Assembly (NCBI RefSeq): GCF_019059575.1
Contig: NW_024881597.1
Span: 538,501 to 602,500, forward strand
DNA: 64,000 bases
Reading direction: 5' to 3'
Source: Amphibalanus amphitrite
Lineage: Eukaryota; Arthropoda; Thecostraca; Balanomorpha; Balanidae
Under the pieces are notes generated by a model. It had not been told where the DNA came from. It saw nothing but the letters and a program-made list of their open reading frames with translations, and made no database searches. This document shows positions 23,801 through 53,222 of the stretch, in pieces. The position numbers were made by a program, and so were the translations under genes. Every line of letters begins with the position of its first letter. Position 1 is the first letter of the stretch.

Positions 23801-26800
23801 ACGAACCGTCAGAAATAGTTACTGCATGAAGTACGCATCTACTCTGAAATTGCAATCATATGTCCTTGTTAGTCACACGGCAAAAATAAGAAGCACATGG
23901 GTGCCTTCCTCATCAATAGAAATGCTTTAATGTGCATTGTGCAAGCTTTTCGACACTCAAACCTGAATATCTTCCACACCCACGATCCTTAGCGTTTCGC
24001 TCTGCTGTCGAAATGCTAAATGAAATCTGCCGTGATGATGTGGAATACCGACCTGCTGCGATGATGTGGAAGACGCAGGGTCTGGCCATGCGTCCGATGT
24101 CGTTGGTGGCCCAGCAGAAGACGGTGCCGTAGTCCATCTCGGTGCGCGGCCGGTAGCGGAGCGTGCTGCGCGTCTGACTGCTGTTCACCAGGCGGCTGTC
24201 CAGCTCGCGCCACTCGGACGTGTTGTTGAACGTCCAGTGGAAGCGCACGCCGGCGGAAGGGTTGGCCGTGACGCTGCACTGCACGTACGCCGTCTCGCGT
24301 TTGCTGACGCCGTGAATGTGTTGAAGACCTGGCTGGCAGACGGGAGGGACTGGGAACGGGGGGGGTCATGGTCAGCAACGTCACGTTCAGTGGAGTGGGA
24401 GTGGTCACTGGACAGTGGCACTGGCGGCTGGACAGTAGCGACTGGACAGTGGGCATTGAATAGTGGTGACTGGGCAGTGGGCAATGGTGACTGGGCAGTT
24501 GGCATTGGACAGTGACGACTGAACAGTGGGCATTTGGCAGTGGCAGCTGGGCAATGGTGGGGAGTCGGTTGACAGTGGGGCGATGGTGATTGAATGGCAA
24601 CGGTTGAAAGCAGAACAGATGTACCACTTTCGGTCGATAGCTTCACACTTTGTTGAGGTGACCTGGAATTGACGGAAATTTTTACGAGAAATCGAATGCC
24701 TTTCCATTGGCCCGTGCTGCGTAGGTATATGCCCGTACGCAACAATATCCTAATGATACTCAATTTGACAACAGAATCACAATGTATAACAAAAATGTCA
24801 TTCAATCTCTCGTTTACTCCATTTCAACCAACTCGCTTCGCTTTAGCTGGAACATTTCAGACTTCTACGTTGAATCTAGGCATGTGAAAAATGGCTTCTA
24901 TTTCCGTCGTTAAAATAGTCGGATCCATCTGTCTTGGAGCCGCATGCGCTAGTGCACTCCTCTCTCTCTCTCTCTCTCTCTCTCTCTCTCTCTCTCTCTC
25001 TCTCTCTCTCTCTCTCTCTCTCTCTCTCTCTCTCTCTCTCTCTTGCTCTCTCTCTTTCTCTCTTTCTTTCTTTTTCGATGTTCCCTCCAAAACCACTCCC
25101 TTTTTACTTAGCATCTCAAAAGACTTGTACACTTCAATGCAGATTGCAAAATAAATGAAATAACATGACAATAAAATAAGAAGGCATAAAACGATGCGAA
25201 CTCTTTATCCCGTTAGTCGTGTCACATGTCGACACCTTCTTTTTAAACCCCACATTTATTCTCCGATGAATTTCATACAAGTTGGTTAGAGACCTTCAAA
25301 AAAGGTACAATCACTCGATTTTTCTCAAGTTTTTCTGTCTTGGCAGATAAAGCAATACCAGAACAGGCCTACGAACACACATATTTGATCAGGATCGGAC
25401 GATTGGACACTTCTAAAAGGAGATCTTTCGTGCCTCCCGGAAATTCACGGGAGAGCAGATGTGGGGTTTAAAAAGGTGTCGATGTGACGTTGACCTCAAA
25501 GCCGTTGTTAGTATGATTAAAGGGACCCTCCCACCTTCAAAAAAGTTAATGAATTGGCATGAAAGTGATGTCCCTTGGTTCAGAAAGAGCGAAAACGAAT
25601 ATCTACCAAATTTCACCGAAAAATATTCACTGGTTTTCAAGATATTAGGCTTTTACTTTTGTTTACTTTTTGGGATCTCCCTGTTACTAGCGACTTTATT
25701 TGGAAGCAATAATTTGGCAGCCTTAAAGTGCGGCAGACGTTGCGCACAAAGCAGCGTATACCACCACGTGTTAACGATGGTTTTAGTCTAAGATTTAAAA
25801 ATCGTTAGATCTCCGCTGACGTCACAAATTCTAAGGGGGCGTACCAATGCATTAGCCCCTTAGAATCCGAAAACTGCAAGTTTGAATTTCCATATCTTCG
25901 AATTAAAGCATTTCTCGATGTTGTGAGTGCCCAAACCGGTATTTGCAGGCCATGGCCACCAATTTGGCTATCTCAACTCAAAACTAATGTTAAGGTGGGA
26001 GGGTCCCTTTAACTCTAGCGTCACGTCACTAAAGGAACTATCCAGCCGACTACATATGCTTCCTTCTCTCCCTACACTCCCTGTTTGCCTGTTGCACATA
26101 CGGACATCGATGAGGATCAGCTGGACGAGCTTGATGTGACCTCTCGCGGGGCAGCTATTTACAACTGATCAATGACGGGCGCCGTCCCACGGTCTCTGCC
26201 GGGTCCCAGCGGCGGTCAGCTGTCAATAGTGCGACCCCATGACGGCCGCCGCAGCTCCCAGTGAGTTGGACTGCCCGCGGCCGGCTCTGGGAAGTTGATC
26301 AATCAGCCGGGCGCGGACGGAGCCCGGCCCGCCCCCTGATCCCCGCTCCTGAGGAAGTCTGGCAGCGCGGGTCGGCTGTACTCCACACCCCAAGGTGTCA
26401 CGGCTGCATCTCAACACGGGCTAATGGGTGACGGCGGCATGCATCAGCTACCGTGCAATCAACTCATGTGGCAGCGGGCTGGCCTTACTATACTTACTAC
26501 GGAGGCCAACCGCCGGGCGCCGAACAATGAACGACCATGTTGGCAGGGCTAATGGTCAGCAGTTCAACTCTGAGATGTGAACAGCCCGGGCGGCAGCCAT
26601 CAATCTGGCCACATCCGAACTCCAGCCAATCAAGATATCGATCGAAAAGTTCACCCGGCAATGGTTTAAATGGTCAGATTAGCAGTTCGGCTAGCACTGT
26701 TTAATGGCCGACCGGCTTGCGATGCGGAGTGGCGCTTTATGACAACGAACAATGCATACAATTTATTCGGGTGTATGTAAAATGCACCCGAATTACTCCT

Positions 26801-53222: not shown

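Follow-up and report, generated by a model that had tools for sequence, protein, structure and literature searches.

The barnacle Amphibalanus amphitrite has a Sidestep-like immunoglobulin gene, of the nerve-guidance type, in which several exon ends are tandemly copied, together with their 5' splice sites (donors), into the introns that follow. This raises the question of whether a process duplicates DNA at donors, whether extra donors are retained by selection, or whether ordinary tandem duplication is tolerated at these positions. The locus was analysed in a stretch of 64,000 bp (C100:538501-602500, hereafter the window) of an assembly of 807.55 Mb in 2644 contigs.

The gene, its arrays and a second version of the locus

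The gene lies on the minus strand, and 12 exons were readable in one open frame (Table 1). The model starts at Ig1a and stops at TM; exons before Ig1a and after TM are absent from it, and a likely C-terminal exon is located near 17585-17779 of the window. Members of the Sidestep family have five Ig domains, a fibronectin type III domain and a transmembrane segment. When compared with solved structures, the first Ig domain of the product matched Sidestep IV, VII and VI (E 9e-25, 5e-20 and 4e-15, respectively), and a Pfam search of the product found Ig domains and a weak fn3 match (E 0.036). By homology and domain layout, the predicted product can be assigned to the Sidestep family. The closest database protein was an A. 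amphitrite entry, matching at 97% across 75% of the query. In the likely C-terminal exon (17573-17660, minus strand), approximately three in-frame 30-bp repeats, which read as ALIGYGPNES-like units, were seen just before the stop codon.

Every position was scored for self-alignment crossing it, at offsets of 15-160 bp and with the score capped on each side, and a threshold of 18 was applied. In the control, one first-order Markov-sampled sequence of equal length, the fraction of positions scoring at least 13 was 0.0000 to four decimals. Four of the 12 donors scored at least 18 with a downstream copy (Ig1a 40, Ig2a 27, Ig2b 19 and Ig3b 40), and the remaining eight, Ig5 among them, scored 0. The donor arrays begin inside the exon and then extend into the intron. 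At Ig1a, Ig2a, Ig2b and Ig3b the first unit takes in the end of the coding exon and its donor, as in a minisatellite spanning an exon-intron boundary. Their head-to-tail units of ~10-100 bp and a copy number that varies between alleles, if the second version of the locus described below is taken as a second haplotype, are those of a minisatellite or VNTR. The original prediction had counted five of thirteen donors as tandemly copied; it held for these four, among the 12 donors that could be modelled. The fifth, Ig5, has a genuine 26-bp duplication but was rejected as a junction-crossing donor copy, since its match ends with GCAG, the copy has AT in place of GT and its score is 0. Two further large arrays in intron 1 (window 48249-48803 and 50643-51254) have the motif AAAAGTACGTA in common, on opposite strands.

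Table 1. Exons, donor arrays and splice-site duplications of the Sidestep-like gene, in window positions
Feature	Position	Strand	Basis and description
Exon Ig1a (first half of Ig1)	53093..53222	-	gene model and Sidestep homology; last ~50 bp are copy 1 of array 1
Exon Ig1b	42978..43183	-	gene model; donor score 0
Exon Ig2a	41654..41764	-	gene model
Exon Ig2b	40889..41089	-	gene model
Exon Ig3a	34710..34861	-	gene model; donor score 0
Exon Ig3b	33520..33664	-	gene model
Exon Ig4a	27978-28108	-	gene model; donor score 0
Exon Ig4b	26861-27020	-	gene model; donor score 0; Ig4a to Ig4b with intron, 26861..28108
Exon Ig5	24053..24349	-	gene model
Exon FN3a	23654-23787	-	gene model; donor score 0
Exon FN3b	21034-21205	-	gene model; donor score 0
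Exon TM (transmembrane)	20557-20781	-	gene model; donor score 0; FN3a to TM with introns, 20557..23787
Array 1 (Ig1a)	52433..53143	-	65-bp unit, exon end CTACAG and donor GTACGGTAAC; 11 copies, the first of them in the exon; 98% matches in TRF
Array 2 (Ig2a)	41521..41666	-	33-37 bp diverged copies of exon end GGGAG and GTAAGT; ~5 counting the exon
Array 3 (Ig2b)	40819..40905	-	~29-bp degenerate copies of ATGATCGACATGAACT and GTGAGT; ~4
Array 4 (Ig3b)	33197..33576	-	~58-bp copies of exon end and GTGAGT; 5 clear; decayed older copies downstream to ~33100
Ig5 exon-end duplication	24026..24052	-	single, 26 bp; copied donor reads AT
Ig3a acceptor duplication	34849..35004	-	3' splice site and ~16 bp of exon Ig3a; spacing 78-79 bp

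A second contig, C166, was found to hold the same gene, with an exon identity of 94.6-98.5%, together with the same adjoining paralogue. It is most likely the other haplotype of the locus, a recent segmental duplication being the alternative. The Ig1a array has 3 copies on C166 compared to 11 on C100, the Ig2a and Ig2b arrays are the same on both contigs apart from base differences, and the Ig3b array is rearranged. The Ig5 duplication and the Ig3a acceptor duplication are both missing from C166. The two versions of the gene are therefore set apart by two duplications and two array changes, and this, together with the different units and ages of the arrays, bears out the earlier claim of independent, repeated events.

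The paralogue, on C100 from ~467 kb, has three readable donors, none of which was counted: Ig2a scored 14, below the threshold of 18, and Ig1b and Ig1a scored 0 (Ig1a 8.5 on C166). A decayed copy is visible by eye at its Ig2a donor despite the sub-threshold score, and decayed copies first suspected by eye at its Ig1a donor were dropped at the score given above. Its exon Ig1b (L031 6366-6538, against window 42978-43183) is 97% identical over 173 bp, and its Ig1a is 77% identical over 86 bp. In the A. amphitrite proteins P0001 and P0002, identical and diverged stretches alternate, and one switch falls inside exon Ig1b, as gene conversion predicts.

Donors and acceptors against the repeat background

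One of the 12 acceptors scored at least 18 with an upstream copy (Ig3a, 28.5); Ig2b and Ig5 lay below the threshold at 11 and 9, respectively, and the other nine scored 0. The original prediction saw no matching duplication at the acceptors, except a possible short one at 34861; the Ig3a duplication shows that acceptors do not escape. Inside the gene, the difference between donors and acceptors (4/12 versus 1/12) was non-significant (one-sided P 0.16). By eye, acceptor-like motifs are abundant in two degenerate arrays: one, at 53372-53592, lies upstream of the Ig1a acceptor by ~150 bp, and the other, at 24383-24588, upstream of the Ig5 acceptor by ~35 bp.

The gene span holds 17 array loci, of which one low-complexity locus was dropped. 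Of the 16 used, four contain a donor and one contains an acceptor. When each event was placed at random as one unit, the expected hits were 0.28 for donors (P 0.0001) and 0.27 for acceptors (P 0.24); when the whole present length of the array was placed, they were 1.40 (P 0.04) and 1.42 (P 0.78), respectively. A gene-wide rotation test gave P 0.019 for donors with forward copies and 0.041 with copies on either side, and 0.77 and 0.83 for acceptors with upstream copies and with copies on either side, respectively; all of these within-gene P values are generous because the pattern was noticed before testing.

The genome was sampled by place, as 21 stretches of 10 kb each (210 kb). At a score of at least 18, positions inside tandem repeats made up 4.6% of the 210 kb, 8.5% of the window and 12.5% of the gene span. 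A simple exon finder was trained on the Sidestep-like gene; of the 12 exons of that gene, it found 8 exactly and two partially and missed two, with one false call. In the 210 kb it returned 43 candidate exons, two of which are the same sequence in opposite orientations. Among these candidates, 1 of 43 donors, belonging to a weak candidate inside an array, had a downstream copy scoring at least 18, compared to 4.8% in neighbouring sequence, and 0 of 43 acceptors had an upstream copy at that score, compared to 3.9%. For the candidates scoring at least 20, the counts were 0/29 for donors and 0/29 for acceptors, with 3.8% and 2.7% in neighbouring sequence, respectively. Most exons are without the pattern, and this small test of 43 candidates speaks against a general hot spot at donors. 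The 4/12 donors of the gene differed from the 1/43 found elsewhere (one-sided P 0.006), and against the local coverage of 12.5% the binomial P was 0.053. Local repeat richness accounts for part of the donor excess of the gene.

In the whole assembly, the motif CAGGTRAGT occurred twice at a gap of 20-50 bp in 358 places, and the reversed control in 179. Single motifs numbered 14,678 and 11,365, respectively, and the pair rate per motif was 2.44% for the donor motif compared to 1.58% for the reversed control, a 1.55-fold excess with a P of 1e-6 that takes no account of the dependence between pairs of the same array. The excess is mild; it may reflect a slight preference for donors, and selection alone could give it. 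In raw counts, pairs of AAGGTRAGT numbered 126 compared to 20 for the control, and this figure looks inflated by dispersed elements, since many of the places listed recur at the same length (41, 56 bases) across many contigs. On C310, C403, C525, C565, C579, C682 and C820, AAGGTRAGT pairs came in twos ~12-13 kb apart and nearly always at 41 bases, a recurrence that suggests a dispersed element or a long repeat.

The CAGGTRAGT places that were listed, the first part of the 358, comprise 33 contig positions, some of which are likely haplotype pairs. Eight tandem-donor loci were selected visually, because they had many copies or looked coding, and are not a fair sample; in five of these eight, copy 1 was the database-supported coding exon end of an unrelated gene. 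These were the exon ends of Ric8 (Pfam E 5e-14), of two SDF-family transporters (E 3e-22 and E 2e-6, the latter just under the family cut-off), of TFIIB (solved structures, E 7e-21, without a Pfam match) and of a kinesin (E 5e-7 together with the preceding exon, the exon alone giving no match). At L035, 15 donor motifs were found in one array, from the exon end onward. The locus L039 gave no match in a database search, and we take it to resemble a forkhead exon; L038 has a short exon-like frame, and at L037 the array seems to start just downstream of a likely donor.

Origin of the arrays and fate of the copied donors

The arrays most probably arose by unexceptional tandem duplication, followed by minisatellite growth, in a genome rich in repeats, and were tolerated at donors since the true donor remains first. 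Slippage, template switching or end-joining would create a short tandem duplication that by chance lies across an exon-intron boundary. If the boundary is a donor, the complete exon and its own donor would remain undamaged upstream, so that splicing and protein would be unchanged and the extra copies would fall in the intron. From the reading frame and the NCBI protein model of the second version, we infer that the first donor is the one used. The subsequent change of the arrays is seen directly, since the two versions of the locus carry arrays of unequal copy number and different sequence. At an acceptor, judging from splice-site choice, the copied site would lie upstream of the true one and be met first, and such duplications would be purged more often. 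A survival filter at acceptors, rather than a donor-seeking process, would then produce a donor bias. The cluster in this gene would reflect local richness in tandem duplications together with chance, a donor hot spot being possible though unneeded. Part of what sets this gene apart is the unusual density of tandem duplications in its introns.

It appears unlikely that donors are a mutational hot spot at which transcription-linked breaks, RNA-DNA hybrids near the start of the intron or GTRAGT itself promote tandem duplication. The four duplicated donors in one gene, the excess of CAGGTRAGT and AAGGTRAGT pairs over their controls and the L035 array with its many motifs from the exon end on would all fit such a hot spot, but candidate-exon donors elsewhere were not above neighbouring sequence, and the Ig3a acceptor of the same gene is duplicated too. 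Moreover, the AAGGTRAGT figure looks inflated and is a raw count of pairs, and survival bias alone already predicts a donor excess. The donor-specific duplicating process suggested in the original prediction was not borne out by the duplicated acceptor, the non-significant difference between donors and acceptors and the single donor among 43 elsewhere.

The arrays had also been linked to intron gain, of which tandem duplication of AG|GT segments would be the first stage. AG|GT is present inside the Ig1a and Ig2a units, and full donors are kept in some copies, but in the gene model the arrays sit inside introns that already exist, no part of an exon has become split off and no new intron was found. 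This reading is very unlikely.

The NCBI A. amphitrite protein model P0001, taken as the second version, has its exons joined at the first donor of Ig2a, Ig2b, Ig3b and Ig5; Ig1a is absent from it. Donor-like sites in the arrays were tested for both versions; of 22 such sites, mostly donor copies, none was open and in frame, three were open but out of frame and 19 reached a stop. Five of the ten intronic Ig1a copies in the window were entered in this test, and all run through the same first stop. As read from the gene model, frame and stops argue against useful products from the copied donors. In the diverged arrays (Ig2a, Ig2b and Ig3b), by a tally that counts weak sub-matches too, the copied GT was kept at 30/44 and 31/50 positions (0.68 and 0.62) and the exon part at 326/440 and 381/500 positions (0.74-0.76), while intron positions 3-6, at 72/88 and 82/100 (0.82), were somewhat better kept than the exon part. 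In copies scoring at least 10, the GT was intact in 7/12 and 4/13. The donor of Ig2a copy 2 is a GT in one version of the locus and an AT in the other. The copies resemble intron DNA in decay, and there was no sign that working extra donors are preserved.

These findings disfavour the earlier suggestion of selection for decoy donors, and it is highly improbable that selection retains the extra donors as decoys or as back-up 5' splice sites: the essential GT was kept worse than the exon part, one copied donor differs between the contigs in its GT, and no site was open and in frame. The well-kept intron positions 3-6 speak for selection, but they do not rescue function because copies without GT make no donor. 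The intronic Ig1a copies seen retain the full CAG|GTACGG, which also speaks for selection, but the Ig1a copies are nearly identical and so young.

False expansion of the arrays during assembly, to which the 98% uniformity of the Ig1a array and its unequal copy number between contigs might point, can hardly be entertained, as C100 and C166 both have diverged arrays with private differences, misassembly is not expected to make degenerate copies, and the separately assembled C166 has arrays at the same donors in other states, which supports the view that the arrays are not the assembly errors considered from the outset.

Known boundary minisatellites and possible consequences

In multiple-donor minisatellites like 6-16, the copied donors are used in transcripts, and the units of the human gene minisatellite described by Turri in 1995 are reportedly ~12 bp long. 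This minisatellite, at the exon-intron boundary of a human interferon-induced gene (cited in PMC2572611), resembles the barnacle arrays in its location at an exon end and in units with potential donors. It concerns one gene and short units, whereas the barnacle has several arrays per gene and others in unrelated genes, with copies that are known from sequence alone. Human segmental-duplication genes carry internal tandem repeats at exon-intron boundaries, with 27 intron modifications (PMC2812944). These are likewise boundary-spanning minisatellites, with average units of 30 bp and variable copy number; they alter transcripts and can give rise to new introns in young paralogs, in contrast to the barnacle gene, which has kept its first donor, with the copies inside the intron.

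Intron gain likewise offers a known case of duplication across a splice junction (PMC4974935). The likeness to the barnacle arrays is in the tandem duplication across a junction, but there the duplication crosses the acceptor and made a new intron, unlike the donor arrays of the barnacle. For the evolution of stwintrons in Lipomyces, duplication of an intron donor element has been proposed, with break repair as its origin (PMC7138796). A duplicated donor element would be common to both systems; the Lipomyces duplications are of 4-7 nt and end in nested introns, unlike the barnacle arrays. A related paper deals with Drosophila (PMC2809761). Among the papers listed in searches of an open-licence library, none was found to describe a gene with several such arrays, or arrays of this kind in any barnacle.

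It is conceivable, though somewhat doubtful, that in the barnacle exon ends with their donors form a standing, genome-wide seed for minisatellites. Such a seed would be shielded since the upstream donor wins; the arrays would grow and become polymorphic, introns would lengthen, spare donors would be supplied, and a systematic asymmetry of donors over acceptors would follow. If retention of the first donor makes donor-spanning duplications tolerable, introns could lengthen from exon ends cost-free, and the asymmetry between donors and acceptors would be a countable, direct test of the choice that a cell makes between two equal splice sites. The two gene versions in one assembly, with arrays in different states, would provide a natural experiment on splice choice and on the speed of minisatellite birth.

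A protein model of another species, P0003 of Pollicipes pollicipes (LOC119094260), contains six to seven repeats of 17 residues between Ig2b and Ig3a, as if gene prediction had read through an intronic minisatellite at the same intron.
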